Position numbers and translations under genes: made by a program. From Terasakiella sp. SH-1 (lineage in GTDB: Bacteria > Pseudomonadota > Alphaproteobacteria > Rhodospirillales > Terasakiellaceae), in NCBI RefSeq assembly GCF_004564135.1, contig NZ_CP038255.1:1210501-1274500 (forward strand): a stretch of 64,000 nt of DNA, in the 5' to 3' direction. A model generated the notes under the pieces. The model made no database searches. It had not been told where the DNA came from and was given only the letters and a program-made list of their open reading frames with translations. Each line of letters starts with the position of its first letter. The stretch's first letter is position 1. Positions 7,134-61,296 of the stretch are shown piece after piece.

Positions 7134-7197
7134 TTGATTAATTCCTCTTATGGCCTGATGCTAAATATAGGGGAAAGTTATGAAAAAAATAAATAAT

Positions 7198-49380: not shown

Positions 49381-49741
49381 GCGCTCTAGATTCATCTTCC
49401 TGATTCTTGTTTTGCTAGACTCATCTCAGTGATTCTATTTCTGCACCTTGGTGAAAATAGGGGGCTGTTTGAGTGTTTTTTCGCTTAAGCGCGAACGCAT
49501 TTTATTGAGTTAATTCACTCTGAGTTTTTCTGTTTTCTTTAGCTGAAAATGAGCTTCTTTCTAAGCATCAATTTACGTGAAGTTTGTTTGAGAAATAGAT
49601 GGCTGAATCGCAAGGGTAGAAAAGTTAAACTGTTTTTTGCGTATCAAAATCAAAGAAATCCATTCTTATTATTGGGCGGTTAATAATGCTAAATTCCACA
49701 TCTAATACCATCTAAGTCATTGATATATTATGTATATAAAA
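49381..49741. other. Gene-free chromosomal region leading to dif
   Basis: 361 AT-rich bases after the MBL gene. I see no coding frame. The segment ends in an inverted repeat that abuts dif. A GC-poor, untranslated stretch is usual near the replication terminus site. Confidence 0.6.
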
Positions 49742-49757
49742 AATATACATAATATAT
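49724..49757. repeat. Perfect 15-bp inverted repeat overlapping the XerD half of dif
   Basis: ATATATTATGTATAT (49724-49738) and ATATACATAATATAT (49743-49757) are exact reverse complements separated by AAAA. The right arm includes the XerD-binding half and centre of dif; the left arm is therefore an inverted spare XerD half-site. Confidence 0.8.
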
Positions 49758-49769
49758 ATTATGCGACAA
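49742..49769 (-). other. dif site (XerC/XerD recombination site), left end of prophage (attL)
   Basis: Read on the minus strand: XerC half TTGTCGCATAA, centre TATATA, XerD half TTATGTATATT. It matches E. coli dif at about 20 of 28 positions, with GCATAA-TnTATA-TTATGT intact. The XerD half faces the chromosome and the XerC half faces the prophage. The 17 bases TATATATTATGCGACAA (49753-49769) recur exactly at 61023-61039. It should mark the chromosome dimer resolution site in the terminus region. Confidence 0.82.
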
Positions 49770-49894
49770 TGTATCACTATTTGCGCCGCCGCCATTCTTA
49801 AACCACCCTCTCTTTGTCTGTTGAGATTTTACTTTAACTTACAACCATCGCGTTATGATTGTGGTTCAAATAAGTATCTTTGAAAAAGCTTAAT

Positions 49895-49960
49895 GCGGCA
49901 CTTACACCAGAAGAAAAAATTAAAACTTTTGGTGTTTAAAGTGCCGCTAATTTTTTTTTT
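49895..49960 (+). terminator. Strong hairpin with T run upstream of the left-end regulator
   Basis: GCGGCACTT (49895-49903) pairs with AAGTGCCGC (49939-49947), with further pairing of ACCA/TGGT inside, followed by TAATTTTTTTTTT. It stands only 19 bases before the GTG of the next gene. It could stop transcription entering across the attachment site or act as an attenuator. Confidence 0.75.
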
Positions 49961-49978
49961 GATTGTGGAGTGATTTCT

Positions 49979-50479
49979 GTGTTTGAAGAGCTTGATTTTC
50001 GATTTTCTAATGCTCTTTCGTCTTTCGACGCTGAACAGTTGCAGATTCTTGCAGCCTATTATCGGGCCATGGCAGACCAATTTGACGCACGCGCTCAACA
50101 ACTCATTGATTACCCCTCCAGTCCTCCAGTCTGTAAAAGATTTGCCAAAGAAGTACGCACGCGAATTGTGAACGGTCAGGATTTAGAAGACGCACTGGAG
50201 GACTGTGAACGCTATTTCCAAGTAGATCAGAGACTATTCAAAGCTGATTTTTTCCGGTTCTATGGAGAAAATGCCATTGAGAAAGCCGTTGCAGATCGTC
50301 CTGCCAATGTGAACAAACGGATTATAAAAGCCTTCAAGGGTGGCCTTACACGTCAACAGCTGGCAGATACGTTTCAAATGCCCAAAGGTGAAATTAGCCA
50401 GATCATAAAGACATGGCAGAACCGGAATAAACAGACCCTACCCTATGACAAAGGTCCCGACTGGTGCTATGAGGCATAA
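49979..50479 (+). CDS. Prophage HTH-containing regulatory protein
   Basis: A 166-residue protein. I choose GTG 49979, eight bases after GGAG; GTG 49970 is an alternative. The N-terminal half is helical (DAEQLQILAAYYRAMADQFDARAQQL). The C-terminal half has a helix-turn-helix: GGLTRQQLADTFQMPKGEISQIIKTWQNR. It is the only plus-strand gene at the left end and is convergent with the structural operon. It is likely a transcription regulator of lysogeny or late genes. Not recognised as a named family. Confidence 0.75.
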   Translation: MFEELDFRFSNALSSFDAEQLQILAAYYRAMADQFDARAQQLIDYPSSPPVCKRFAKEVRTRIVNGQDLEDALEDCERYFQVDQRLFKADFFRFYGENAIEKAVADRPANVNKRIIKAFKGGLTRQQLADTFQMPKGEISQIIKTWQNRNKQTLPYDKGPDWCYEA

Positions 50480-50481
50480 AA

Positions 50482-50513
50482 AAAGAGCGTTGCCCATTAC
50501 AGCAACGCTCTTT
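50482..50513. terminator. Bidirectional terminator between regulator and structural operon
   Basis: A perfect 12-bp stem AAAGAGCGTTGC/GCAACGCTCTTT with an eight-base loop. It lies between the stops of convergent genes, with A/T-rich tails on both sides. Confidence 0.9.
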
Positions 50514-50544
50514 CAAGTTTAGGAGATTACCGTGTCAAAAACGG

Positions 50545-50676
50545 TCAGCTTTTAACCTTCACCACACGACCACCTGGCATATACTTGAAGCCTTTTTTAA
50601 GTTTGCCGTTTTTGTCCAGTGCATTCATCTTTTGAGCCGCTGAGAACTTATTGCGGAATTTCTTTTTACGTGCCAT
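50545..50676 (-). CDS. Small basic phage protein (43 residues)
   Basis: ATG 50676 overlaps the stop of the previous gene (TAATG). The 43-residue product begins MARKKKFRNKFSAAQKM and ends RVVKVKS. It is strongly basic (Lys/Arg about one third) with no membrane segment, so nucleic-acid or membrane-surface binding inside the virion is plausible. It is the last gene of the structural operon. Unknown family. Confidence 0.75.
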   Translation of the reverse strand: MARKKKFRNKFSAAQKMNALDKNGKLKKGFKYMPGGRVVKVKS

Positions 50677-50903
50677 TAGCCGCGCCCCTTCTCTTTCATA
50701 AACATGGAAGCAAGACCGAAAATCAGAGTTGCAACACCGAAGAGTGGGCCACCTGTTGCAAATGAAGTCCCGGCATCAACGGCGACTTCTACGCCTTGGG
50801 CTACTTGCGGGTTATCAAATAGTTGGGCCACGCCTAAAGCTGCAACGCCCATACCGCTGATCGTTGACGGTTCTGACACACGTTTTACAAATTCGTTATC
50901 CAT
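50676..50903 (-). CDS. Small phage membrane protein (75 residues)
   Basis: A 75-residue protein with one or two Gly/Ala-rich hydrophobic segments (ISGMGVAALGVAQLF and GPLFGVATLIFGLASMFM) and a basic end KEKGRG. This composition is typical of small virion-membrane proteins of corticovirus-like phages or of holins. It is coupled to the next gene by TAATG. Confidence 0.75.
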   Translation of the reverse strand: MDNEFVKRVSEPSTISGMGVAALGVAQLFDNPQVAQGVEVAVDAGTSFATGGPLFGVATLIFGLASMFMKEKGRG

Positions 50904-50913
50904 AACTTTGTCC

Positions 50914-51066
50914 TTAGTTTAAAAGTTTCAAATATTTTAAAGCAGTTTCCAAAACGGCCATTCGTTCTTTCATAGAAACCATTTCAGGCAGTAACCAAGA
51001 TAAAATCCCGGCGGTTACCACAGAAGCCAGATGACCGCTGGCTTGAATAAGTTTTAAAAAATCCAT
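50914..51066 (-). CDS. Small phage membrane protein (50 residues), possible holin-like
   Basis: I start at ATG 51066, which overlaps the upstream stop (TGATG) and follows GGGGGAAAG. The 50-residue product has a membrane helix (LASVVTAGILSWLLPEM) followed by a coiled-coil-like segment (KERMAVLETALKYLKLL). A longer frame to 51099 overlaps the upstream small gene. A lysis or virion-membrane role is inferred from the neighbouring hydrolase. Confidence 0.7.
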   Translation of the reverse strand: MDFLKLIQASGHLASVVTAGILSWLLPEMVSMKERMAVLETALKYLKLLN

Positions 51067-51173
51067 CAGTCTTTCCCCCAGTTGACCAGAAGCCACCAAA
51101 TAAAGGAGATAGCGGCCATCATTTTAATCAGGCCGTGTTGTGGGTTTTTTGCTGGTAAAATTACGGCGCCCAT
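51066..51173 (-). CDS. Small phage membrane protein (35 residues)
   Basis: A 35-residue product starting MGAVILPAKNPQHGL with a membrane helix (IKMMAAISFIWWLLVNW) and KD at the end. Its ATG overlaps the upstream stop (TAATG) and its stop overlaps the downstream ATG (TGATG). The unbroken chain of overlaps makes it likely to be translated. Confidence 0.7.
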   Translation of the reverse strand: MGAVILPAKNPQHGLIKMMAAISFIWWLLVNWGKD

Positions 51174-51373
51174 TATTTTTTTCTCCGAAACTTAAAATAG
51201 GCCCAGACCCCTACCGCGCCGATCCCGGCAACGATGTATTTTGTGCGTGCGCCTTTTCGTTCATCAGCTGTTACAGGGTCATCATCAGGCCCTTTCATAA
51301 CCTGATAGGTTCCAGCAGCACCTAAGCCGACTAAACCAATTACTTTTGCTGCTGCCCAAAATAATGCTGGCAT
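51173..51373 (-). CDS. Phage two-helix membrane protein (66 residues)
   Basis: A 66-residue protein with two membrane helices (FWAAAKVIGLVGLGAAGTYQV and YIVAGIGAVGVWAYFKF) separated by a charged loop (KGPDDDPVTADERKGAR), ending RRKK. Coupled both ways by TAATG. Likely in the virion inner membrane or part of the lysis module, as it is next to the cell-wall hydrolase. Confidence 0.75.
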   Translation of the reverse strand: MPALFWAAAKVIGLVGLGAAGTYQVMKGPDDDPVTADERKGARTKYIVAGIGAVGVWAYFKFRRKK

Positions 51374-51867
51374 TAGGCAAGCCCCTTATAGAATTCATGA
51401 CCGCCAGCCGTGTAACTTGCCACATGGCCTACTGCCCAGTTCGCATACAAGCCACGGACCTTATAATGGTAAACATCATATCCGATGTGGTTCGGCATCG
51501 TTCCGGCCATGGCTTCACCAGCAATTTCATAAGCCAGATTAAAAACATCATTGTCCCCTGGCATAAGCTTTTCGATCTTTGAACGGTTTGGATCGTTATA
51601 ATTCCAGCATGAGAACTGCCATGGTTTCAGGCAAACACTTGCAATGTCATTCCCCCACCAGCCACCACGATTGACACGGTTTAAAATTACCTGAGCAACA
51701 CACTCCATACCGTGACGGCCTTCCCCGCGTGCTTCACCATATAAAGTCCGGGCCATAGTCAGGCGTATTTGTTCGTTTGGCTTATATTCTGTTTGTTTGT
51801 CCATTTGACTTGCTCCAAAGATCAGCGCCGCCGCACCGACGGCTATCAGCAACGCTTTCTTACTCAT
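51373..51867 (-). CDS. SleB/CwlJ-type cell-wall hydrolase
   Basis: A 164-residue peptidoglycan hydrolase of the Hydrolase_2 family (PF07486). An N-terminal membrane anchor (ALLIAVGAAALIFGASQM) is followed by the catalytic domain: TLYGEARGEGRHGMECVAQV with the catalytic-type Glu, ILNRVNRGGWWGNDIASVC and WQFSCWN. In tailless phages such virion or lysis enzymes open the peptidoglycan during entry or release. The stop overlaps the downstream start. Confidence 0.9.
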   Translation of the reverse strand: MSKKALLIAVGAAALIFGASQMDKQTEYKPNEQIRLTMARTLYGEARGEGRHGMECVAQVILNRVNRGGWWGNDIASVCLKPWQFSCWNYNDPNRSKIEKLMPGDNDVFNLAYEIAGEAMAGTMPNHIGYDVYHYKVRGLYANWAVGHVASYTAGGHEFYKGLA

Positions 51868-51904
51868 TTTGTTTTCACCGGATCAGAACCGGGCTTGATA
51901 CGTT

Positions 51905-52843
51905 TTATTGCCATTGTACCCATACCCCATAAATTTCATTTGAAACCCCGGCGGTTCCCTCAAAGCGCCAAACGATTTGCGTCCCAGCCACCCCTGTAAA
52001 AGGAATGTCGCAGGTTGAAATGTTTAATTCCCCTTCATTTGGAAACCACGCAGAACCCTGCGCCTCAACAGTAGAGGCACTGGCAAAAGTGACGCCATTA
52101 TCGCGTGAGATTTTAACCACACCGTCCAGTGCGACAGAATGCAGCAGAACCAGCCGCGCCGTAGATGGGCTTTCAGTCGCATCCTGCGCAACCCCTTGGA
52201 GGACCAAGGCCGGGTTATTCGCTTCAAAAACACGCCATTCTGCCATGTACCAATTCGCCTCAGCGGGGGACGTGTTGCCTGTTGGAATTAAGCGCCAATG
52301 CTTATGCGCCCCGACACTGGACCAAGAAATAGTCTTATCCGTCCCACCTGTTACGTTTGGAGTAAATTGTGTCCAGTCCGTCCCATTATCAGAATAAGCC
52401 ACATCAAAAGCAGACACATACTGGTTGCCGTAGCTTGTTGTCTGGTCCAGAAACATTTCAACAATTTCTTTGTCAGCCGCAAAGGATTGCTGCAAGTAAA
52501 TCCCATTCAGATAGTGATTGATCCCATCTACAGCAAACCCCGTAGACATATCCTCGTCATACAAACGAGAAATAGGGGTTCCACTTGGGGCATTACTTGC
52601 ATCTGTTGACGCCGAAGCAACATTAACCAAGGCGCTATTCACAGAGTATTTACCCGCCGAATAGACATGACCGGAACAAGCCCCGGTATTCATGCCCATT
52701 TCATCGCTAAATTGGTCCGCAAAGCCATCGACCATTTTGGAAATCGACCAGCCGTTATCAACCATTTGACGTAGGAAGTTTTCAGCCGCTAATTGGCGGG
52801 CCACCGCATCATAGGAAACACCGCCACCTGTTGAGCCAGACAT
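51905..52843 (-). CDS. Candidate receptor-binding spike with discoidin-like (F5/8C) domain
   Basis: A 312-residue, beta-rich protein. Residues about 65-215 resemble a discoidin/F5/8 type C domain: YSDNGTDWTQFTPNV is the classic SxDGxxW-like strand, and HKHWRLIPT the later strand. The N-terminus has a helical attachment-like part (VARQLAAENFLRQMVDNGW), and the C-terminus is another beta domain. Discoidin domains bind glycans or lipids, so a vertex spike binding host surface sugar fits. It starts directly after the upstream stop. Confidence 0.65.
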   Translation of the reverse strand: MSGSTGGGVSYDAVARQLAAENFLRQMVDNGWSISKMVDGFADQFSDEMGMNTGACSGHVYSAGKYSVNSALVNVASASTDASNAPSGTPISRLYDEDMSTGFAVDGINHYLNGIYLQQSFAADKEIVEMFLDQTTSYGNQYVSAFDVAYSDNGTDWTQFTPNVTGGTDKTISWSSVGAHKHWRLIPTGNTSPAEANWYMAEWRVFEANNPALVLQGVAQDATESPSTARLVLLHSVALDGVVKISRDNGVTFASASTVEAQGSAWFPNEGELNISTCDIPFTGVAGTQIVWRFEGTAGVSNEIYGVWVQWQ

Positions 52844-53392
52844 TTAGAATTCCTCCAGAACATAAACATCAACCGTACCAGTGGCGGCAATCCCATAAAT
52901 ATCGCTTTTACTTTGATCCAGCACAAACTCACTTGAAATCGGATAGCCCTTTGTTGTCGTATCTACATCACTTTCACCTATAAAGATTTCAGCATTATTC
53001 TTAGGCTTAAGCACCAGTGAAAAGCGCCCTGCCCCAGATGAAATCAAAGTTGGTACACTGGATACTGTGACTTTACGCCCTTTGGCTGTTGTGCCCCGTT
53101 TGATTTCTAAATCATCAAGAAGGGTGCGCCCATCGTAGTAATCATCATCAGTACAAAGAACCGTAATCGTATTCGGCGCTGTATGGATATTCTTGATCTC
53201 AAATTCATCAAAACCACCCTCAGGGCTACGTTTTGATTTATTTTCAGACTGAATACGCCGTTCACCACCAAACCCTTGTTCAAAAGGCCCGTCTGCGCTC
53301 AATACAATGAAGTGACGCCCACCTTCTGAAACGCGCCAAATTTGGCCCGGTTGCAAAGTTTGCGTATCACGATAATTGCGACGATCACCCAT
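52844..53392 (-). CDS. Beta-rich phage structural protein, candidate penton or spike base
   Basis: A 182-residue protein, mostly beta by composition (GQIWRVSEGGRHFIVLSADG, FSLVLKPKNNAEIFIGESDV, VDVYVLEEF). The last part resembles a small jelly-roll-like domain seen in many phage fibre or penton proteins, but I cannot assign it. It stands between the spike candidate and a tail-anchored membrane protein, so vertex function is a reasonable inference. The start overlaps the previous stop by one base. Confidence 0.6.
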   Translation of the reverse strand: MGDRRNYRDTQTLQPGQIWRVSEGGRHFIVLSADGPFEQGFGGERRIQSENKSKRSPEGGFDEFEIKNIHTAPNTITVLCTDDDYYDGRTLLDDLEIKRGTTAKGRKVTVSSVPTLISSGAGRFSLVLKPKNNAEIFIGESDVDTTTKGYPISSEFVLDQSKSDIYGIAATGTVDVYVLEEF

Positions 53393-53766
53393 TAATCTTT
53401 ACCCCAAAATAACCACATTGCAAAAAGAGATACCCCTGTAAAAAGAAGCCCTTTAACCGTCATTTCAGCCATTTCCTTGGCGTCATTCTCGGTCTTTTCT
53501 TCTGCAATTTTTAAACTTTCAATAGACAGTTTTTCTGCCAGATCACGCGAGGCTGTCATGACATCCCGTGATAAATCCATAGAAGCTTCACCCAAAGCTT
53601 GCGCAAGGTTCAGCCCGTTCGGGTCCATCGCTTCAATGATCACGTCACCCGCACTTGAAGCAATGCCGCCATTTTCCAAAATCTGACGAGTGTCATAGAT
53701 ATCATCGTCATAAGTTGTTGTTGTCTGGTTGGATGAACTGGATTGACTTGAAGACTTAGAACCCAT
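53392..53766 (-). CDS. Phage protein with C-terminal membrane anchor (124 residues)
   Basis: A 124-residue protein: a low-complexity Ser/Gln/Thr N-terminus (KSSSQSSSSNQTTTTYDDD), a helical middle (about 55-100) and a C-terminal membrane helix (GLLFTGVSLFAMWLFW). The tail-anchored layout matches two neighbouring genes, and suggests proteins that link the virion membrane to the capsid. Unknown family. Confidence 0.75.
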   Translation of the reverse strand: MGSKSSSQSSSSNQTTTTYDDDIYDTRQILENGGIASSAGDVIIEAMDPNGLNLAQALGEASMDLSRDVMTASRDLAEKLSIESLKIAEEKTENDAKEMAEMTVKGLLFTGVSLFAMWLFWGKD

Positions 53767-53768
53767 GA

Positions 53769-54176
53769 TTAGAACCTGTAGACTTCTTCAGCCAGCTTTG
53801 CACCAGCCGCACGCAAAGCACGACCAACGGCCCGATTTGACGTGTGCGCACGCATATGCTGGCAATTCTTATTCTTCATTTCTTGGATCAAGGCAGGCAT
53901 AGCCCGTTTCAGGCCGTTTCGTGTGCCTACCAATGATGCACCCGCCTGAATAACCAACTCACGTGCCTGTCCCACAGGATCAACCCATAGGCAACAATAT
54001 CCAAGACGTTCAGCAGGAGAAACGGCCATATCAATGACCGCGAAAAGAACGGTACTGCCACGCGCAACCTCAGTTTTCAAATCGGCAATTGAATAGGTCG
54101 GATCGTTTCCAATAGCCTCAGCCATTTTACGTTCCGCTTCTTCATTCCAATTTGCACGTTGAAGAACAACACTCAT
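53769..54176 (-). CDS. GNAT-like protein in phage structural operon
   Basis: A 135-residue protein with the sequence pattern of an N-acetyltransferase fold: LFAVIDM...ERLGYCCLWVDP (strands 2-4), ELVIQAGASLVGTRNGLKRAMPALIQEMKNKNCQHMRAHTSNRAVGRALRAAGAK... (helix, strand and final elements; the full run is at residues 70-135). The acetyl-CoA loop Q/RxxGxG/A is not clear (ASLVGTRNG), so activity is uncertain. It overlaps the upstream gene by 4 bases. It may modify virion or host protein, or serve as a structural variant. Confidence 0.6.
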   Translation of the reverse strand: MSVVLQRANWNEEAERKMAEAIGNDPTYSIADLKTEVARGSTVLFAVIDMAVSPAERLGYCCLWVDPVGQARELVIQAGASLVGTRNGLKRAMPALIQEMKNKNCQHMRAHTSNRAVGRALRAAGAKLAEEVYRF

Positions 54177-54406
54177 TTTTTCTTTTTTCCCTTGCTAAGC
54201 CAAGAGGTCGCGACAAAGGCAACCAATGCGAAAATCGCAATTTTGCCTAATTCAGTCGTGACACCACTTGTTTTGTAATTGAATGGCATGGAGACGCCGG
54301 ATGTGCGCGAACCGATATCATTTTGACCTCGGTTCGAGCTTTCCGCACGGCCAGCTGCCATTGAACTATTCTGGAAGGACCATCCCCCACCGCCAGTAGG
54401 TTCCAT
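54173..54406 (-). CDS. Phage protein with C-terminal membrane anchor (77 residues)
   Basis: A 77-residue protein with a Gly/Ser-rich N-terminus (EPTGGGGWSFQNSS) and a C-terminal membrane helix (IAIFALVAFVATSWL) followed by SKGKKKK. Same tail-anchored design as genes 53392 and 54418. Probably a virion membrane protein. The stop overlaps the GNAT-like start (ATGA). Confidence 0.75.
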   Translation of the reverse strand: MEPTGGGGWSFQNSSMAAGRAESSNRGQNDIGSRTSGVSMPFNYKTSGVTTELGKIAIFALVAFVATSWLSKGKKKK

Positions 54407-54417
54407 CTCAAAGCCCC

Positions 54418-54732
54418 TTATTTCGACAGGAACTTAAAGATTGCGATACCACCAACAATAATCCCGATGATCACGCCGATCTTTTCCAATGAAAGAGGTT
54501 TCTTCGTTGGATTTGACCAGTCTGACTGCATCCAGTTTGGATTTGCAGTGTCGCCCACCGTTGGCGGAGGCGGCATTGAGTTATTTGAATTATATGCAGA
54601 TGAAAGTTCCATCTGTTTTTTGTTCAAATCCCATTCAGCCGCCGTTTTTCCAATTTCCAGAATATCCTGAAAAATAGAACCGCCACCGGAGATCGTGCTA
54701 CCACCGCTAAAACCTAAATAGTTTGAAAGCAT
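54418..54732 (-). CDS. Phage protein with C-terminal membrane anchor (104 residues)
   Basis: A 104-residue protein: Gly/Ser-rich start (YLGFSGGSTISGGGSIF), helical middle (DILEIGKTAAEWDLNKKQME), Pro-rich stretch and a C-terminal membrane helix (GVIIGIIVGGIAIFKFL). It starts 12 bases after the major capsid protein gene. A likely membrane-capsid linker. Unknown family. Confidence 0.75.
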   Translation of the reverse strand: MLSNYLGFSGGSTISGGGSIFQDILEIGKTAAEWDLNKKQMELSSAYNSNNSMPPPPTVGDTANPNWMQSDWSNPTKKPLSLEKIGVIIGIIVGGIAIFKFLSK

Positions 54733-54744
54733 GACAGCACCCCT

Positions 54745-55641
54745 TTACTTTTTGTCTGCAAAATCCATCGGATTGTAGAGCGTTTCACAGACATAGCGGA
54801 CCGTACCTGATACAGCGCCTTCAACGTTTGTATCGGTGTTCCACCACTTGGACGTATCAACAATATCCTGCGGACGGTTGCCCGCAAAATCAATGTGTGT
54901 GTAACCAGCTTGAGGAACACGGCCAGAGGTTCGGTAAGACGCAATATCTGCCAGATATGGCAAATGTGCCTTTTCCATTTCAAAAATATCTGTACGGTTT
55001 GTACGAATTTTGAAACGATCAATATCCGTGCTTGCAATGTGCAGAGCCTTGAGGCCACGCTGCATACCGTCTAGATAATCTTCTTTCAGGTTATGGACGC
55101 CGGATGTTGTAAATTGCAGTTCACCGCCAAGAACGCGAATGATTTCACCAACAGGCTGGTTACCACCGGAATAAACAGCATGACGTGTCTCCAATGTGTA
55201 AACAAACGCACCAGCTTTAAGTTTCAGCTTAATTGTAACCTTGGAAAGGTCACTTGTACCCAAGCCTGCACCGTCTTCGGCATTGATGACTTCTTTACCA
55301 TCGCTCACCTGATCCATATACGGCAAGGCATGAATGATAGGGAAAATACCGTTATCATCTTCAAGAGGAAAATCAGTGTATTTCAAAATACAATCAATGT
55401 ATTCAGAGCCTGTGCATTCAATGATTGTATGCGTCCCCATGCGAGAGGATGAATCGCCTTTAATCTTGAATTCCACTTCTTCAATGTGGGTACGCATCTG
55501 AGCAATGGTTGCAGGCACGCCGTCAATTGTCAGCGTATTCATATGCAAAGCATATTTAACATCGGTATCACACATAAGTGTAGCGTTACCGCCCGGTGTT
55601 ACATGCTCCCAATCATCACCAGTAAGGACATATTTACTCAT
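54745..55641 (-). CDS. Candidate major capsid protein (double jelly-roll type)
   Basis: A 298-residue soluble, beta-rich protein with a strong ribosome site (AAGGAG). The size is close to PM2 P2 (about 270) and FLiP MCP (about 330). The position after the packaging ATPase, the lack of a signal or membrane segment and features such as HTIIECTGSEYIDCILKYTD, the mid-protein LKLKAGAFVYTLETRH and the late GYTHIDFAGNRPQDI (a pattern seen in related phage coat proteins) support the call. Fold assignment is inference; structure prediction would decide it. Confidence 0.65.
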   Translation of the reverse strand: MSKYVLTGDDWEHVTPGGNATLMCDTDVKYALHMNTLTIDGVPATIAQMRTHIEEVEFKIKGDSSSRMGTHTIIECTGSEYIDCILKYTDFPLEDDNGIFPIIHALPYMDQVSDGKEVINAEDGAGLGTSDLSKVTIKLKLKAGAFVYTLETRHAVYSGGNQPVGEIIRVLGGELQFTTSGVHNLKEDYLDGMQRGLKALHIASTDIDRFKIRTNRTDIFEMEKAHLPYLADIASYRTSGRVPQAGYTHIDFAGNRPQDIVDTSKWWNTDTNVEGAVSGTVRYVCETLYNPMDFADKK

Positions 55642-55653
55642 GTAAATTACTCC

Positions 55654-55791
55654 TTACAGATAGCCGTTTACAACATCAGTGGCGGTACCATAGTTACCGT
55701 CAAAAATGAAACGCTTAATCGCGCTGCAAACCACAAACATAATACCAAAAGCGGCCCATGCCTTAGGATTTTTCAAAGAGCCAAAGCCCAT
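55654..55791 (-). CDS. Small phage membrane protein (45 residues)
   Basis: ATG 55791 follows GGAG at seven bases. The 45-residue product starts MGFGSLKNPKAW, has a membrane helix (AAFGIMFVVCSAI), then KRFIFDGNYG and ends VVNGYL. It is the first gene after the operator-like palindromes at 55883-55919 and immediately before the major capsid gene. Probably a virion membrane protein. Confidence 0.75.
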   Translation of the reverse strand: MGFGSLKNPKAWAAFGIMFVVCSAIKRFIFDGNYGTATDVVNGYL

Positions 55792-55882
55792 ATCTTTTCT
55801 CCAAAATTCAAACCAAAATCAGCCCACTCCCCGTGTGGGTTAAGTGAGCTGATTTCGCCGGAACGGGAGACTTTTATCAAAC

Positions 55883-55919
55883 GGTCTAATAGACCTATGG
55901 GTCTAATACCTATTAGACC
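55883..55919. promoter_or_regulatory. Paired palindromes of GGTCTA type upstream of the capsid genes
   Basis: GGTCTAATAGACC (55883-55895) is a palindrome around a central base. It is followed by GGTCTAATA-CC-TATTAGACC (55900-55919), whose arms are perfect inverted repeats. A matching GGTCTATTAGACC lies at 57519-57531, and a half-site GGTCTAATA is at about 55980. The spacing and gene positions suggest operators for late genes, or processing sites. Inference. Confidence 0.5.
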
Positions 55920-56581
55920 TAAATCGGAGGAACTAACTCGACGTCACCACCCTCATAATAGAGGTGATAATAGTCTTTTAGGTCTAATACACCCTTTTCG
56001 ATATCTTCGTTATCATCACACATGGCTGCAACGGCTTTGGCTGCATTCTTACCAGAGACCTTAAAGGTACATACACGGTCTACGTTTTCACGGAAATCAG
56101 TAGAAATTCGTTGAGGGCGTTGTGTTGAATAAATGATGCTGATGCCAGATTCCCGTCCCATGGTAATCGCCTCAAGCAAGCCAGTACCAAATGGATATGG
56201 ATCATGTAACGGATTAGCCATATGGGCTTCATCAATGAACAGCGTAAACTTTTCATCACTATCCAGTTCCATATAGGGCCGCTGAATTTTGAAAATTAAT
56301 TTACAAAGTTCATGCATTTCCTGACGACCATTTACCGCATCTGGGAAATACAGAATACGAAAGTTCCCATCCCGGTTATCTACAAGCACGTCAACCAGAT
56401 CGGCGAGACTTGTCGCGAAATACATGTTGTTATCATCAGCAAAACGTTTCCATGAAGCCGAACGTTTAAAATCAACAACCAACAAACGGTCATTGTTTAT
56501 AAGTTCATGTTGGGCATAATACGATTTACCGGACCCTTTTTTGCCGATAATTGCCATAAGTACCCCATCACGATCCTGCAT
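55919..56581 (-). CDS. Genome-packaging ATPase, FtsK/HerA type
   Basis: A 220-residue P-loop ATPase, the size of PRD1 P9 and PM2 P9 packaging ATPases. Walker A GKKGSGKS at residues 13-20, Walker B FTLFIDEAH, and the downstream Q in IIYSTQRP. I start at ATG 56581 (AAGGAG nine bases upstream); the open frame continues to 56956 but that part is in the other gene's frame. Alternative reading as an inovirus Zot protein is less likely, since no membrane segment follows. Confidence 0.85.
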   Translation of the reverse strand: MQDRDGVLMAIIGKKGSGKSYYAQHELINNDRLLVVDFKRSASWKRFADDNNMYFATSLADLVDVLVDNRDGNFRILYFPDAVNGRQEMHELCKLIFKIQRPYMELDSDEKFTLFIDEAHMANPLHDPYPFGTGLLEAITMGRESGISIIYSTQRPQRISTDFRENVDRVCTFKVSGKNAAKAVAAMCDDNEDIEKGVLDLKDYYHLYYEGGDVELVPPI

Positions 56582-57200
56582 GATCTGTGTCTCCTTCTCG
56601 GTATTCAATTTCTTCTGATTGAGGTGTAATAGGGCGTTCTTCGGCTGTTTCTTGTGTTTTAGCCTTCCCTTTTTGTCCCATCTTACGTTCAATGCGTGCC
56701 TTCTTTTTGGCTTTGAGTTCGGCAATAATATCGGACACCACAGGTCCTGCACCGTAATACAAAACAAAGATGTCTTTAATATCGTCACTTGCAAAGAGTT
56801 TAAGAACAGGCTCAAGCGTAGGATTAGCCAAACGACGATGGACAACTTCACAGGCATCGAAGAAGTCTTGGTTATTTTTATCAATTTCCAAAGACTCAAG
56901 TTTCCCGATCTTCGATAAGAAGTAGGTGATTTTGATAACATTTTTATGAAACTCATCTACCGGGTAATGCGCCATGATTTCTGCGCGCACCCTGTCCGTT
57001 ATATCGCCACCAGTCGTACTGGAGACATTGGCCGGATCGTCTGCCTCAAGTGGCAGATCGCCATAAATAATTTTTGAACCTTCAACGCGAATGTTTGACC
57101 ATTCGTCAGGTTCAGAGACCTCTAAAGGCTCCACGACTTCCTGTGGTTCGGACTGTTCCTGTGTTGTCGTCGGTTTGGGTTTGCTTCCAAAGGGCCACAT
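56568..57200 (-). CDS. Phage protein of unknown function (210 residues)
   Basis: A 210-residue protein with an acidic Pro/Glu/Thr-rich N-terminus (KPTTTQEQSEPQEVVEPLEV), a helical middle domain (about 75-160) and a charged coiled-coil-like C-terminus (ELKAKKKARIERKMGQKGKA). GGAGTAGAAAACG precedes ATG 57200. It overlaps the packaging ATPase start by 14 bases and the zinc-ribbon gene's 3' end by 89 bases. It may work with the ATPase in packaging. Unknown family. Confidence 0.7.
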   Translation of the reverse strand: MWPFGSKPKPTTTQEQSEPQEVVEPLEVSEPDEWSNIRVEGSKIIYGDLPLEADDPANVSSTTGGDITDRVRAEIMAHYPVDEFHKNVIKITYFLSKIGKLESLEIDKNNQDFFDACEVVHRRLANPTLEPVLKLFASDDIKDIFVLYYGAGPVVSDIIAELKAKKKARIERKMGQKGKAKTQETAEERPITPQSEEIEYREGDTDHAGS

Positions 57201-57450
57201 CGTTTTCTACTCCGTTAAGTTCGTTTTGATCTTGATCATCTAAAAGAAAAGGCTGCACAGCATGTTTTTGAATGTCCTGTGGCCGCGTGAACTTGTTGGA
57301 AAACAAATGTCTATCGTTGCAATCTTCAATATCGTTATTGCAGTTGTAATAAATCCTTGGATTTTTTTCGGAATTGTATTGGTACAGTTGCAGTACCTTC
57401 CCACAGGACGGACATTTAACGCCCCACCCTGTTAGTTTCTTTCCTGCCAT
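57112..57450 (-). CDS. Phage zinc-ribbon protein
   Basis: A 112-residue protein with an N-terminal treble cysteine pattern: VKCPSCGKVLQLY (CxxC) and IYYNCNNDIEDCND. This suggests a zinc ribbon and nucleic-acid binding. The C-terminal 45 residues are acidic and Gln/Thr-rich and are encoded partly in the 89-base overlap with the next gene. A palindrome GGTCTATTAGACC lies about 70 bases upstream. Regulatory role inferred. Confidence 0.7.
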   Translation of the reverse strand: MAGKKLTGWGVKCPSCGKVLQLYQYNSEKNPRIYYNCNNDIEDCNDRHLFSNKFTRPQDIQKHAVQPFLLDDQDQNELNGVENDVALWKQTQTDDNTGTVRTTGSRGAFRGL

Positions 57451-57518
57451 TTTTGACTACCTTATTCAGAGCAGTCCGCCGATCAGGAATATATTACAAC
57501 TGAAAAATTAACAAAAAC

Positions 57519-57531
57519 GGTCTATTAGACC
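57519..57531. promoter_or_regulatory. Palindrome GGTCTATTAGACC
   Basis: A 13-bp palindrome (arms GGTCTA and TAGACC around one base) between the zinc-ribbon gene and the upstream small gene. It is the same element as at 55883-55919. Confidence 0.5.
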
Positions 57532-57734
57532 TCAATTAGATCATATCCTTGCCATTTTAGGGGCCTAATTGCCCTATTCCATGTCCCAACAGCTTTATCG
57601 CTTGTTTTACAGCCAGGTCCTTCTGCATAGCATCTTTTGCAAACGACTTTCCTTAATTGACCTAAGATTTGTAGCTTTGCATCACCACCACAAAAGGGAC
57701 ATTTCCTAAGTTTTCTATTCGGCGTCATTGACAT
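57525..57734 (-). CDS. Lar-like zinc-finger protein (restriction alleviation type)
   Basis: A 69-residue protein with the Lar pattern: LRKCPFCGGDAKLQIL, VVCKRCYAEGP and AVGTWNRAIRP. The two CxxC pairs bind zinc. Lar proteins modulate type I restriction in Rac prophage; here the true role is unknown. It overlaps the end of the Rep gene by 20 bases. ATG 57734 or 57728 could be used; I chose the former. Confidence 0.8.
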   Translation of the reverse strand: MSMTPNRKLRKCPFCGGDAKLQILGQLRKVVCKRCYAEGPGCKTSDKAVGTWNRAIRPLKWQGYDLIEV

Positions 57735-58923
57735 ATCGGTATCTTTCAAAGGCAAGATCAATTTTTCTCTTATGTTCTGGGTCAGACCATATCATCTCAA
57801 CGGTTTCTTTCACCAGTTCATTCAAAGTTTTTGCCTGAAAATCATAGTCCTGTGTTTCCAAAACGACCAAAGAACGCAAGGTTCCTGCTGCATTCCGTTT
57901 CATTTGATCGCTTAGCTCAGTTTTTCTACCGTGCACCTGTACTTTCAATGGTATCGGCCAATAAGACTCCCCAGCCGCGTCCCAGCATTCATCCCATAAT
58001 GGGTGGTTAGGCCATCGTGAACGGTTGGTGTCGTTGGTCGGTTGCGCCAGCCGCCGCCGTTCTAAACAGTCCTTGAGCAATGCATCCTTATTCTCCATGA
58101 ACTGTTCGTAAGTCTGGATACCTCTACGTTTCAGGTATCCTTTGCCATTAAAGCGTAATTCCACACGCCAGATATGATCAAAGCTATCTAAAACTAAGCC
58201 ATATTCATTTCTGTTCCATAAATCCAACATCCAAGTTTTTTTGGAATTCTCACGGATTTCACGCCCTTTATCGTAAATTTGGACTTGTAAGGATTTCAAT
58301 GTTCCTACTGTTAATGTCTCTGTTCGTCCGCCCGATCCGAACGCTGACCACTGTAATTCTGATATATTGTTTGGCAATTCAGTCATTTTGCCGCGCGTAC
58401 CATTTTTTACTCTTGAAAGACAGACAAACTGGTCATGCATGGCCGCACTAATTTCATTGGTTAATTCTTCGGAATGAAAGTCAAAAGCCCAATGAATGGA
58501 TGACATACGTATCCAGTCTGTTCCCTTGGGTATCCCAAGAAAACGGGCAATTTTTTGAGCTTTTGCCCTTAAGCTATCAGGCGTAAATTCCCAAAGGGCT
58601 GCTGAACGATATTCTATGGTCAAAATCCACCCATCCATATCGCGTGAACGGATTTTGATCATAAAATGATTGTTCAACATAACAAAGACAGCGCCACCGC
58701 CACCTTTCCCCTGCATTTGGAAGGTTTCTCCGCAAATTTCAAAGGGGGTAAGCCCTTTGCCTCGTTTGCACTTCCCTTTTGCCTCTTCTTGCATCCCTTC
58801 CAGCCATTCCCAAATATAGTCTGTAATTCCAATATCAAAGGTCTCAATGAGGGTATCTACACCTTGCGCAAGTAGGGTCGCATAATCCGCTTGAAAGGAT
58901 TGATTGAGTGCGTTTGCTGACAT
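57715..58923 (-). CDS. Phage replication initiation protein (rolling-circle type)
   Basis: A 402-residue initiator. The arrangement resembles the Rep_trans/RstA-type family (PF02486): WIRMSSIHWAFDFHSE (metal or acidic strand), LQVQIYDKGREIRENSKKTW (Tyr-containing strand) and IWRVELRFNGKGYLKRRG. AAGGAAAATCC precedes ATG 58923, with a GC-rich hairpin 27 bases upstream. It should nick the replicative form for rolling-circle replication. A HUH motif is not evident, so this is not a PM2 P12-like protein in sequence. Confidence 0.75.
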   Translation of the reverse strand: MSANALNQSFQADYATLLAQGVDTLIETFDIGITDYIWEWLEGMQEEAKGKCKRGKGLTPFEICGETFQMQGKGGGGAVFVMLNNHFMIKIRSRDMDGWILTIEYRSAALWEFTPDSLRAKAQKIARFLGIPKGTDWIRMSSIHWAFDFHSEELTNEISAAMHDQFVCLSRVKNGTRGKMTELPNNISELQWSAFGSGGRTETLTVGTLKSLQVQIYDKGREIRENSKKTWMLDLWNRNEYGLVLDSFDHIWRVELRFNGKGYLKRRGIQTYEQFMENKDALLKDCLERRRLAQPTNDTNRSRWPNHPLWDECWDAAGESYWPIPLKVQVHGRKTELSDQMKRNAAGTLRSLVVLETQDYDFQAKTLNELVKETVEMIWSDPEHKRKIDLAFERYRYVNDAE

Positions 58924-58949
58924 TGGATTTTCCTTGGTATGTATTTGGT

Positions 58950-58977
58950 GTACCCCCTGTTAGACGGTCGGGGGTAC
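58950..58977. repeat. GTACCCCC/GGGGGTAC hairpin before the Rep gene
   Basis: GTACCCCC (58950-58957) and GGGGGTAC (58970-58977) form a perfect 8-bp stem with a 12-base loop containing TAGACGG. No T run follows on either strand, so it is not a simple terminator. It could be a replication origin hairpin or a translational operator bound by the SSB-like protein. Confidence 0.5.
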
Positions 58978-58982
58978 AGGTA

Positions 58983-59177
58983 TCAATTTATTAAAGTTGA
59001 ATGAGGTTCGGAAAGATGCAATTTTAAATTGCGAATATCAATCTCTTTTTTTCCCTGACAATCACCAAAAAGGAAGTCGAGTTCTGCCTGTGTTTCTGGG
59101 TCATATAGAGGGTGGGTCGATGCAGGGGGAACTGCATCGACTTGCTTACGTTTAAAGAGTTTGCTTAACCACTTCAT
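58983..59177 (-). CDS. Small phage protein (64 residues)
   Basis: I start at ATG 59177, with GAGG six bases upstream; the longer frame to 59372 overlaps the SSB-like gene. The 64-residue product starts MKWLSKLFKRKQVDAVPP, a basic amphipathic start, and has an acidic part (DPETQAELDFLFGDC). Unknown family. It lies between the SSB-like gene and Rep. Confidence 0.7.
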   Translation of the reverse strand: MKWLSKLFKRKQVDAVPPASTHPLYDPETQAELDFLFGDCQGKKEIDIRNLKLHLSEPHSTLIN

Positions 59178-59184
59178 GACGACC

Positions 59185-59643
59185 TCAGTACGGAATTTCA
59201 TCTTCGGTACTTGGATCGAATGAAGAGCCAGAGTTCCAATCCGGTCTTGGTCCATTGCCAGCCGAGCCGCCAGACGTCCCTGCATTCGCAGTAGAGGCAC
59301 CAGAGCCGTTTCCCCCTGCCTTTTTGCGTGGCGGTTCCCAAACAAGGCGATACGTGTCCTGCCCGGCTGCATATCCGGTCATAAATAGCTTTTCAGGCCA
59401 ATCTAAGCTGGCAAGGTTCACATTCAGGACTTTTTCTCCCGTGTTCGGCAGGACGCCAAATTTGGCAGTTCCAAGCTCCCAGCCTTCCATATCTTCAACG
59501 ATATATCGTGGGATACGGTCATTGCCTTGCTCGTATTCAGGATTGTCTTTCAGAACAAAGTTGACGATTTCTTTTTTCCAAACACGAACACGACCTTTCA
59601 GTTGGCCTTCTGGCGTGATGTGGATTTTGCCGATTGCGGGCAT
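59185..59643 (-). CDS. DUF736/SSB-like protein with acidic C-terminal tail
   Basis: A 152-residue protein. Residues 1-105 resemble a DUF736/OB-like domain (IGKIHITPEGQLKGRVRVW, FGVLPNTGEKVLNVNLASLDWP). Then a Gly/Ser/Asn-rich linker, and a final acidic tail STEDEIPY like bacterial SSB tails that dock partner proteins. A strong AAGGAG precedes the ATG. A single-stranded DNA-binding role fits the neighbouring Rep gene. Confidence 0.7.
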   Translation of the reverse strand: MPAIGKIHITPEGQLKGRVRVWKKEIVNFVLKDNPEYEQGNDRIPRYIVEDMEGWELGTAKFGVLPNTGEKVLNVNLASLDWPEKLFMTGYAAGQDTYRLVWEPPRKKAGGNGSGASTANAGTSGGSAGNGPRPDWNSGSSFDPSTEDEIPY

Positions 59644-59689
59644 GTTTAGACTCCTTGTCTGTCATTGAGTAGGGGTGCGGCCTGTAGGC

Positions 59690-59840
59690 CGGGTAGCCTA
59701 AAGGCTTCTTGTGATGGACGTTTTTGAGGAGGTGGGGGAGAGGCCGGAGTTCGACGCCAATGCCTGTCCCCCTCCATCACAGTCAGCCGCGCGCGGGGCT
59801 ACCAACACCGCAACGCTTCGGATGCCTTGCGGCAAAACAA
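59690..59840. other. GC-rich structured non-coding stretch
   Basis: Between the SSB-like gene and the next gene, 250 bases hold no convincing CDS on either strand. It is rich in short inverted repeats (GGCCTGTAGGCC just before, AGCCTAAAGGCT, GGAGGTGGGGG against CCCCCTCC). The base composition differs sharply from the flanks. It may be a replication origin for complementary or leading strand, by analogy with ssDNA-phage intergenic regions. Confidence 0.4.
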
Positions 59841-59869
59841 AAGCCGGATACGCATCTGCGTACCCGGCT
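59832..59869 (-). terminator. Terminator-like hairpin on the minus strand
   Basis: A stem of about 12 bp with one mismatch: AGCCGG-A-TACGC and GCGTA-C-CCGGCT around a four-base loop (59842-59869), followed on the minus strand by TTTTGTTTTG. It lies just past the stop of the 78-residue gene, separating early from replication genes. Confidence 0.75.
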
Positions 59870-59893
59870 GTAAAACTGGATAATGAATGTTGT

Positions 59894-60130
59894 TTAGTTT
59901 TCGGTTTTGAACACTTTTGTTTTTTCAAGGACGCGAAGACGCTTGCCTTTTCCTGCAAGCGCAGTTCTAGCAAGTTCCCACCAACGATGTGGCATTTCTT
60001 GCCTTTCCCAACTGGAGCGCCCATGACAAGCTTCGAGTTCACCGTCATCCCACAGTACCACCGTGAATGTCAGTTCTTCCTTCGGATCGTACAGCTTGGC
60101 CTTCACTCCCAACGTCATCTTTTCTTTCAT
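59894..60130 (-). CDS. Small phage protein (78 residues)
   Basis: A 78-residue protein starting at ATG 60130. Contains LYDPKEELTFTVVLWDDGELEACHG, then basic GKGKRLRVLEKTKVF. No known family. A longer frame begins with TTG at 60154. It overlaps the end of the upstream gene by 86 bases. Confidence 0.55.
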   Translation of the reverse strand: MKEKMTLGVKAKLYDPKEELTFTVVLWDDGELEACHGRSSWERQEMPHRWWELARTALAGKGKRLRVLEKTKVFKTEN

Positions 60131-60335
60131 GTGGCTTGTCCCAGTCAAAATCAAAACTAATGTCTGTATGACTGTACACTCGCCCCGTTAATTCTTCGAG
60201 ACGAAAAACGAAAGACTGGAGGCTATCGACAATTTCTTTGTGGAGTTTTTCAGATTTATCAAAATTCTTCCCGTCAGGATCGACAGGCATCACAACCCGT
60301 ACACGGCCACCAATGGTATTTGTTTTTGATTTCAT
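60045..60335 (-). CDS. Small phage protein (96 residues)
   Basis: A 96-residue protein starting at ATG 60335 (GGGGAAAGAG upstream). TIGGRVRVVMPVDPDGKNF at the start and a helix KSEKLHKEIVDSLQSFVFRLEEL in the middle; the C-terminus is highly charged. Unknown family. It is the first gene of the minus-strand operon, facing the divergent regulator at 60614. The longer frame to 60548 is unlikely. Confidence 0.6.
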   Translation of the reverse strand: MKSKTNTIGGRVRVVMPVDPDGKNFDKSEKLHKEIVDSLQSFVFRLEELTGRVYSHTDISFDFDWDKPHERKDDVGSEGQAVRSEGRTDIHGGTVG

Positions 60336-60516
60336 CTCTTTCCCCTTTTGTTGCTTTTGTCGGCAACACGGGGAAGGAAGAAAGTCGGCGGACTTTGGGT
60401 TACAGCTTATACGGGGTGCCGTGGCCCGGCCCCCTACTTTTGTGTCTCCCTTCCCCGCGAAGTTCGACAGATCAGAAGCCAAAAGCGAAGCCTTGGACCT
60501 CCATACCCACCAATGA

Positions 60517-60584
60517 CACTTGGCAAGTGCCCAGAGCCAACCACACAACGATTCACCTTGTCAATGGCAAGTGACGCTTGCCAT
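60517..60584. promoter_or_regulatory. Operator-like repeats between divergent prophage promoters
   Basis: CACTTGGCAAGTG (60517-60529) is a palindrome around G; ATGGCAAG-TGACG-CTTGCCAT (60564-60584) is an 8-bp inverted repeat. Both hold TGGCAAGTG, 44 bases apart. They stand in the 278-base gap between the operon and the Cro/DUF3693-like gene, as expected for lysogeny operators. Confidence 0.55.
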
Positions 60585-60613
60585 AATTCATTCAGACAGA
60601 TAAGGAGCTCAAA

Positions 60614-60967
60614 ATGAAGACTATTGATGAGTACATTGACAAAGCAAAAGAGCTAAACAGCTTTCAATCAGACCGCGAACTAGGTCGCGCATTAGGTTTT
60701 AAAGGAAATCCAGTTAACAATTGGCGTACTAAGCGTACATGGCCTGCTGAAGGTACTATGATCGAACTTGCAAACCTTGCAGACGTCCACCCAGAAATAG
60801 CCCTCTTGGATTTGGGCATTTGGCGGTCCGAAGGACAGGCTTCTGTAGTCTATACACACATGAAAGAGTTACTTGAGACTATGCCTAATAAGCTTATGAG
60901 TTTATTGGCTTTTGCTGCGTTTCTACCGCTTTTTAATCCTAGTCCCCTCACCCGTAGGGACATCTAA
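60614..60967 (+). CDS. Phage regulator with HTH (DUF3693-like) and C-terminal membrane segment
   Basis: A 117-residue protein. The N-terminal helix-turn-helix region (TIDEYIDKAKELNSFQSDRELGRALGF, NPVNNWRTKRTWP, MIELANLADVHPEIALLDLG) resembles DUF3693 proteins found in filamentous phages. The C-terminus has a hydrophobic segment (NKLMSLLAFAAFLPLF). AAGGAGCTCAAA precedes the ATG. Likely repressor of the minus-strand operon. In the circular genome it would lie upstream of the 49979 gene. Confidence 0.75.
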   Translation: MKTIDEYIDKAKELNSFQSDRELGRALGFKGNPVNNWRTKRTWPAEGTMIELANLADVHPEIALLDLGIWRSEGQASVVYTHMKELLETMPNKLMSLLAFAAFLPLFNPSPLTRRDI

Positions 60968-60983
60968 ATATATATGTGGTGCA

Positions 60984-61039
60984 TTGTCGCATCATGTATA
61001 GGTAATGTACGGTAGTACACCCTATATATTATGCGACAA
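60984..61039. repeat. Head-to-head pair of dif-like sites (attP(+)-like hairpin) at the right end
   Basis: On the plus strand TTGTCGCATCA-TGTATA-GGTAATGTAC (60984-61010) is followed, inverted, by the right dif-like site ending TTATGCGACAA (61039). The XerC halves are 10 of 11 identical and the centres differ by one or two bases. Together they form a 24-bp imperfect stem with a tiny loop. This resembles the folded attP(+) of CTXphi. Confidence 0.7.
61012..61039 (-). other. dif-like site at the right end of the prophage (attR)
   Basis: On the minus strand the XerC half TTGTCGCATAA and centre TATATA are identical to the left dif, but the XerD half (GGGTGTACTAC) is degenerate. With XerC cutting between the XerC half and centre, the outer half is chromosomal and the rest phage-derived, consistent with XerC-driven integration. 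Confidence 0.75.
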
Positions 61040-61160
61040 AAAATGATGATGGAAACGTGAGTTGCTGTGGTCTCTATCCTTCTTAACGTGAAGTGATTTT
61101 ACTTTAACTTTGCCCTTCGCTTCGTAGTTGCGATGCAAATAGATGTACTGAAAAATGCTT
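61040..61160 (+). other. Diverged copy of the prophage left-end sequence outside the right junction
   Basis: GATTTTACTTTAACTT at 61095-61110 also occurs at 49825-49840, in both cases exactly 62 bases after the GCGACAA of the att site. Similarity continues after it (GCAAATAG...TGAAAAATGCTTAGTG against TTCAAATAA...TGAAAAAGCTTAATG). No gene is seen here. It suggests a relic of an older related prophage or captured chromosomal flank. The rest of the gap to mazG (61161-61296) shows nothing further. Confidence 0.6.
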
Positions 61161-61296
61161 AGTGTTTTTATCGTGGCTTGATTCTATATGCGGACTTTGT
61201 TGTTGAGTTATCGACTTCGGGCTTTCTTGAGGGGCAAAACTCAGGCATGGTGCGCTTCAAATATTTCTTTTGTTTTGAACGCGTGGAGCTTCAATC

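Follow-up and report, generated by a model that had tools for sequence, protein, structure and literature searches.

A probable Vinavirales prophage in the dif site of Terasakiella sp. SH-1, and one-armed dif-like attachment sites among its relatives

How can a phage without a recognised integrase occupy dif, the site of chromosome dimer resolution, without its host losing that site? The question is raised by an 11.3 kb prophage at positions 49742-61039 of the DNA analysed here, a stretch of 64,000 nucleotides that we call the window. The prophage sits in the chromosomal dif of Terasakiella sp. SH-1, a magnetotactic alphaproteobacterium with a chromosome of 3,832,570 bp (PMC6819731). We read the element as a temperate, tailless membrane-type phage of the Vinavirales, most like clade A of that order, which host XerC and XerD would have integrated at dif, and we put the probability of this reading at about 0.88.

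The two ends of the element were examined as dif-like sites of 28 nucleotides. The left site, attL (49742-49769, minus strand), is an intact dif reading TTGTCGCATAA|TATATA|TTATGTATATT on that strand, with the XerC arm at 49759-49769, the centre at 49753-49758 and the XerD arm at 49742-49752. The right site, attR (61012-61039, minus strand), has an intact XerC arm and centre (61023-61039) and a degenerate XerD arm (61012-61022). The XerC arm and centre of the two sites are identical at 17 of 17 positions and the XerD arms at 4 of 11; among 300 Markov shuffles, the arm and centre matched at 14 of 17 positions at best. Across the junctions, TTGTCGCATAA-TATATA-TTATGTATATT (minus strand) can be read as the host dif and TTGTCGCATAA-TATATA-GGGTGTACTAC as the phage attP, which lies directly 3' of a gene for a P16-like helix-turn-helix (HTH) regulator (60614-60967). 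attL combines a host-derived XerD arm with a phage-derived XerC arm. All five congeners have a single uninterrupted dif at the same locus, behind the same upstream gene, and the same downstream gene follows it in each when read by eye; the site is thus empty in these genomes. Together with the two end sites, these empty loci bear out the original prediction of an 11.3 kb block between dif-like sites. When the whole chromosome was searched with a loose dif pattern (up to 3 mismatches), 12 matches were obtained, as against 8 for a reversed-pattern control; the left site had 1 mismatch, and the remaining 11 rows, among which is the left site on the opposite strand, had 3 each. The host also has, on the XerD side of its dif (window 49725-49755), an inverted second XerD-like arm, ATATTATGTATAT...ATATACATAAT, and a similar one was seen by eye at the dif loci of the five congeners (L025-L029).

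The asymmetry of the two ends recurs in related elements. We compared 24 stretches around capsid genes together with the window (25 in all), using a dif matrix made from eleven sites, several of which were taken from these same loci. Both ends with a shared core were recovered in ten of the 25, in which the centre is shared at 6 of 6 positions, one arm at 8 to 11 of 11 and the other arm at 2 to 8 of 11; arm and centre together reach 14 to 17 of 17, with 0 to 3 shuffles in 300 doing as well. A clear dif (matrix score of at least 23.6) stands at one end in nine of the ten, the window included, and the better site of the remaining element, L070, scores 13.0 and has an atypical centre. Two mirror classes occur. 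The XerC arm is retained in the window, L048, L050, L051, L065, L066 and L070, and the XerD arm in L044 and L067; L045 is ambiguous, its dif reading better in the other orientation (23.8 versus 20.3), and was left out of the class counts. The search for the second site relied on similarity, so that part of the resemblance is a product of selection; the absence of two intact sites from all nine clear cases was not selected in this way. Among the other stretches, L068 has both sites with one centre base different, 13 nucleotides are shared between the ends of L064, and L049 (G424:C10) goes against the rule, as its dif-like end faces the regulator gene and its centres differ. The L049 junctions (3868-3895 and 13886) share the XerC arm, and one centre is perhaps 8 bp long, the length found in the plasmid sites cer and psi. 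The remaining stretches run into contig ends, are one-sided or lack a dif-like site.

The pattern extends to isolated phages and to the position of the site. Among eight isolated-phage records scanned, NO16 has the XerC-arm form and PM2, Cr39582 and GXT1010 the XerD-arm form, with single scores only moderately above chance (18.7 for PM2, with a maximum of 19.6 in 60 shuffles); Jorvik, YY, D526 and PG21 gave no site above shuffles. Nineteen elements carry a P16-like gene: 14 of them have a site lying -69 to +102 bases from the end of the frame with the degenerate arm toward the gene, one (L049) contradicts this arrangement and four show no site in the stretch searched. Only the inner arm is informative in prophages, whose outer arm belongs to the host. 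The arm class changes at least five times among 16 labelled tips on the tree of the major capsid protein (MCP), a weakly supported tree. Outside one transposase-bearing group, the integration mechanisms of Vinavirales prophages have been said to "remain unclear" (PMC9502842). Neither the one-armed rule nor its mirror class was found in the literature searched, and both may be new; the supplementary att figures for NO16 and Jorvik may show parts of them.

Which enzyme would carry out the insertion? The 22 of 24 open reading frames (ORFs) compared with one or more family libraries gave no tyrosine recombinase, portal or tail family. The host has a XerD-like gene whose best equivalog model is XerD (324.5 bits, slightly under the cut-off of 329.6) and a XerC-like gene whose best model is XerC (307.7 bits, slightly under 335.15). 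Matches to the phage integrase family PF00589 number 21 in its genome, 20 of them above cut-off; none lies in the window. The element thus has the features of an integrative mobile element exploiting Xer (IMEX), namely no recognised integrase of its own, a dif-like attP and insertion in dif. As had been predicted, no integrase is recognised, and XerC- and XerD-like genes exist in the host; the further claim, that host XerCD is exploited, we can state only as an inference, with XerCD the likely catalyst to judge from these sites and genes. In the mechanism that we propose, circular phage DNA would be integrated by host XerC/XerD through an attP whose XerC arm and hexamer are identical to dif and which lacks a proper XerD arm, and one perfect dif would exist after integration. 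This rebuilt dif would serve chromosome dimer resolution, while the FtsK-driven reaction of XerD would work poorly on the other junction, and the prophage would be held in place as is the gonococcal island (GGI). FtsK disrupts divergent complexes. TLCphi and difGGI, which pair a good XerC arm and centre with a divergent XerD arm, are described as recombined by XerD first and then by XerC, and the GGI is named there as a clue to the persistence of such integrated elements (PMC5357621). Since the window attP has the same arm pattern and leaves a perfect dif to the host, the same XerD-first route may be inferred for its phage by analogy. A XerC-first exchange may also occur but was dropped as the sole pathway, the two described elements with this arm pattern being XerD-first.

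The attachment region of the window carries two further features. One is an inverted second dif-like copy (60984-61002, plus strand), which pairs at 17 of 19 positions with 61021-61039 across 18 nucleotides. It is the sole such repeat in the window (19-nucleotide arms, loop of 5 to 60), and the stretch is predicted to fold with z-scores of -5.2 and -5.6, none of 200 shuffles being equally stable. No comparable copy was found in the nine other elements, in which the 400 bp around each junction hold no match of 15 of 17; two of them have an inverted match of 13 of 17 there (L051 and L066, the latter being its own dif). The inverted copy was therefore ruled out as a general trait. Speculatively, folded single-stranded DNA from rolling-circle replication could be used through it as in CTXphi. 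The attP centre of the window, TATATA, is identical to that of dif, and the CTXphi-type state in which the centre is incompatible with dif unless folded was not found.

The other feature is a copy of host sequence flanking dif. The host block (61078-61164, plus strand; core TTTACTTTAACTT at 61098-61110) has a counterpart within the phage end (49807-49895, plus strand; core at 49828-49840). The phage-end block is colinear with the host right flank (offsets 37 and 38), and 1 of 500 shuffles was as good. The 13-nucleotide core occurs exactly twice in the chromosome, one occurrence being in the phage, and a control occurred once; both cores lie 69 nucleotides from their TTATGCGACA. A pattern of TTATGCG plus the core is present in all six genomes of the genus and in one other among 317 of the order, there without dif-like context. 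In all six genus genomes the core lies near dif at an almost fixed distance from the XerC arm. The nine other elements showed no flank copy (p 0.38-0.98), and the idea that such a copy is a general trait was dropped. RNAalifold applied to seven sequences of the block found no conserved pair. An Rfam scan gave one sub-threshold match outside the block, to the suhB/mmgR small RNA (window 50470-50550, minus strand; 24.5 bits, cut-off 41). That the motif is a dif accessory or promoter element is our guess; the presence of a copy in the phage hints that Terasakiella may have a dif accessory sequence so far unrecognised. A competing explanation is that 49807-49895 is an accidental, functionless capture of host DNA. 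The copy is present in one of ten elements, and integration at dif offers chances for imprecise exchange, both of which fit such an accident. What speaks for function is that the 13-nucleotide core and the exact 69-nucleotide distance were preserved while the intervening sequence diverged, and we accordingly rate accidental capture somewhat short of even odds. Among the ten elements, the foldable inverted dif-like copy and the equidistant copy of a genus-specific flank motif were seen solely in the window.

Taken together, these observations suggest a device that Vinavirales might share. Its attP would lie 3' of the P16-like repressor gene and contain the dif centre with exactly one arm, in two mirror classes; the host would regain a perfect dif, and the other end would be hard to excise. 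The phage of the window would add to this device a CTXphi-like inverted copy, serving single-strand integration, and a copy of the genus-specific dif-flank motif, through which the rebuilt dif would keep its neighbourhood. We advance this proposal tentatively and think it rather more apt to fail in some part than to hold as a whole. If true, the shared site would give a concrete and testable answer to how many Vinavirales prophages integrate, would explain how a dimer-resolution site can be occupied without loss to the host, and would make sense of the dif-like site seen in PM2 and its close relatives.

What kind of phage carries this site is indicated by its virion genes. The 298-residue product of 54745-55641 (minus strand) matches the PM2 P2 capsid family (PF25513 P2_C, 4.8e-11, above cut-off), and a capsid profile of the window and nine relatives, some of them nearer PM2, matched PM2 P2 (2vvf) at 5e-59. 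The packaging ATPase (219 residues; 55919-56578, minus strand) matches phrog_2666 at 2.6e-24. It has weak tblastn matches to NO16 and archaeal tailless-virus ATPases (24% identity, E 0.001 to 0.4), and its iterated profile reaches the ATPases of PM2, NO16 and Jorvik. A SleB-type cell wall hydrolase (51373-51867, minus strand; PF07486, 2.6e-15) lies between the spike position and the lysis genes. The order of ATPase, P7, MCP, P3 and P8, GNAT and spike positions and hydrolase is that of the PM2 and Jorvik records and of the published description. The candidate capsid protein (at the sequence level), the Walker-type ATPase and the SleB hydrolase of the original prediction were thus all recovered, as was its absence of tail, portal and tyrosine recombinase genes. 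Its absence of a terminase has to be qualified, the best PHROG of the ATPase (phrog_2666) carrying the label "terminase large subunit". The prediction had also described a lysogen like PM2 or FLiP. The PM2 half of that description stands, and kinship with FLiP was rejected: 16 iterated profiles (1e-4) matched no FLiP ORF while matching PM2, NO16 and Jorvik for both MCP and ATPase, and the FLiP Rep was not reached by the Rep profile. An icosahedral single-stranded DNA phage of the FLiP/PhiCjT23 kind at dif would have in its favour the filamentous-type Rep, also reported for the FLiP group (PMC5894146), PhiCjT23-like prophages reported at dif, and an att site that can form a hairpin. FLiP capsids are reported to be extremely diverged (PMC5894146), so the negative profile result is weak and more weight falls on the positive match to P2_C, given which we regard a FLiP-like phage as very improbable.

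The replication gene has a different affinity. The initiator (402 residues; 57715-58923, minus strand) is of the Rep_trans/inovirus type, with a match to phrog_1159 (1.3e-8), a YDK motif and an invariant Y217, and agrees with the Rep that had been predicted. Alone it matched no Pfam family; tblastn found three phage records, which include Reps of filamentous phages (1e-4 and 3e-4). When a profile was built from five Reps of the group and run against a database of 11 sequences, it recovered two of those records (9.6e-18 and 2.5e-12) and missed the Reps of PM2, NO16, Jorvik and FLiP. Rep_trans was matched by 4 of 12 aligned Reps. By these matches the virion genes resemble those of PM2 and the replication gene that of filamentous phages; replication genes are described as often replaced in Vinavirales (PMC9502842). 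Inovirus homologues, which the original prediction had named as counting against it, were found for Rep and not for the other genes. An integrative plasmid or inovirus-like element with an acquired capsid gene would account for such a Rep. It would hardly account for a series of Vinavirales-type genes instead of a single capsid gene, and no filamentous coat family was matched in the 22 of 24 ORFs scanned. The ATPase resembles Zot weakly (PF05707 0.016; phrog_197 1e-4, against 2.6e-24 for phrog_2666), and an inovirus coat together with Zot/pI was not found. We consider such an element scarcely credible, if anything a shade less so than a FLiP-like phage.

A Vinavirales phage therefore remains the preferred reading, and membership in that order is well supported by these homologies. 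In an MCP tree of 28 capsid proteins, the window pairs with L067 (96/84) and, with L044, falls in an 11-row group of prophages from the same class (81/95), apart from PM2, GXT1010 and NO16 (96/96). Membership in clade A is likely, the window grouping with ten same-class prophages in a tree that has no named clade A reference. Among 317 genomes of the order, 7 matched the capsid profile (one of them in part), as did 11 of 385 sampled from the class; P2_C was matched in 10 of the 398 genomes sampled from the phylum, and the single MCP in 4 of 199 relatives, the window's own genome being counted each time. A scan of genome contigs found two MCP relatives, in Magnetovibrio blakemorei and in a Magnetospira metagenome-assembled genome. 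The MCP had no match at E<=1 among 50,697 phage records, and no close relative was confirmed when viral contigs were searched with the MCP, the ATPase and the Rep singly. One genome (G439:C1) has two PM2-like capsid loci, L047 and L076, with an equal profile score of 122.2 bits; the dif matrix scan found a good dif-like site at neither.

Several observations weigh against our reading. The capsid assignment is one of sequence, particles, a circular form and XerCD dependence are only predicted, and the 298-residue protein by itself found no relevant match in the PDB (phmmer). Several other proteins were assigned by position only. The branch that leads to the window MCP is long (1.75), the tree leaves the 81/95 fork open, and the same-class L066, L069 and L073, as well as Jorvik and YY, fall outside the 11-row group. 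SleB was matched in six of the 11 rows (window, L044, L045, L046, L064 and L067), some of the others being contig ends. Identity to any of the 27 other capsid proteins is at most 29%, and because of this divergence a new genus or more is plausible. GC skew falls around the locus without a sharp flip, so the terminus is not independently confirmed. In a Vibrio survey, tailless prophages at dif were reported regularly to carry integrases, and the ORF at 57112-57450 weakly resembles a recombinase zinc ribbon (PF13408, 7.7e-4, under cut-off) and the "integrase" phrog_95 (0.0044 over 37 residues). The element might also be a decayed or domesticated prophage that has lost the ability to form particles, its relatives being too distant to reveal selection. 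Its principal ORFs, however, are uninterrupted and stand in the expected order, and each end can still be recognised; we judge decay unlikely, if well within the range of the conceivable.

The remaining genes were assigned largely by position and hydropathy, and all those of the virion and lysis region are on the minus strand. One-helix proteins of 45, 104 and 77 residues occupy the P7 (55654-55791), P3 (54418-54732) and P8 (54173-54406) positions. A 135-residue protein with relatives in other elements stands in the GNAT acetyltransferase position (53769-54176; weak acetyltransferase match, 0.24), followed by a 124-residue relative of PM2 gp j (53392-53766; iterated profile to PM2 7076-7915, 3.9e-6) and a 182-residue structural candidate (52844-53392) with iterated-profile relatives in other elements, including NO16 6232-6783. 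The spike (P1) position is taken by a 312-residue F5/8 type C domain protein (51905-52843; PF00754, 5.9e-7), its role being assigned by position. Four small ORFs of 43, 75, 61 and 66 residues in the lysis/holin position (50545-51373) include two with a transmembrane-like segment, and the 43- and 75-residue proteins have phmmer relatives in other elements. A 210-residue protein at 56568-57200 is in the PM2 ORF h position and has relatives upstream of the ATPase in L044 and L067. A hydropathy scan of the 24 ORFs found a single transmembrane-like segment in six and a pair of them in none, and the earlier description of many one- and two-helix membrane proteins was overstated. The 152-residue protein adjoining Rep (59185-59643, minus strand), earlier called like a single-stranded DNA-binding protein, has a DUF736 match under cut-off (0.0055), and such a role is a guess. 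The 117-residue P16-like HTH regulator (60614-60967, plus strand) matches phrog_638 (1.3e-11), and its iterated profile reaches PM2 gp c and NO16 gene 6. A 169-residue HTH protein (49970-50479, plus strand) with weak sub-cut-off HTH and sigma-factor matches is a possible regulator. A Lar-like restriction alleviation protein (57525-57761, minus strand; PF14354 3.2e-8, phrog_599 1.3e-8) overlaps the end of the Rep gene and is apparently antirestriction cargo. The 112-residue ORF at 57112-57450 (minus strand) has weak zinc-ribbon matches.

Comparison with known systems places these features. That tailless membrane phages use dif and XerCD has been put forward before, for NO16 (PMC9966536) and for Jorvik (PMC10589892), and alphaproteobacterial Vinavirales with SleB are clade A (PMC9502842); the novelty claimed in the original prediction was thus overstated. 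TLCphi and difGGI share the arm pattern of the window; they are unrelated elements, and the review treating them (PMC5357621), in its account of these sites, describes neither an inverted second copy nor a mirror form with the XerD arm retained. The CTXphi attP has the same foldable, inverted pair of dif-like sites, differing in that its sites are 90 bp apart, with incompatible centres (PMC4246890), where those of the window are 18 nucleotides apart with the dif centre TATATA. Clade A, the proposed "Mestraviridae", has an alphaproteobacterial host, SleB in the PM2 P5 position and a PM2-type MCP and ATPase in common with our phage, and Rep_trans replication proteins are reported in the order (PMC9502842). 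Jorvik, a Rhodobacter phage, likewise has an alphaproteobacterial host, no predicted integrase, a proposed use of XerCD and a similar structural gene order; unlike the window element, it integrates in the RuBisCO operon and has a short unrelated replicase and other lysins (PMC10589892), and the dif matrix gave it no 28-nucleotide site above shuffles. The corticovirus PM2 agrees in gene order, capsid family and a one-armed dif-like site 3' of the P16-like gene, and differs in retaining the XerD arm instead of the XerC arm and in its Rep family, which the Rep profile does not match. The PM2 Rep is of the HUH type. That PM2 has a dif-like site was already pointed out in the description of NO16 (PMC9966536). 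NO16 itself ("Asemoviridae") differs in its Vibrio host, in a capsid placed elsewhere in the tree and in a Rep missed by the Rep profile; like the window element it is tailless and temperate, about 10.6 kb long, with dif-like sites and proposed use of XerCD (PMC9966536), and its site retains the XerC arm and centre.

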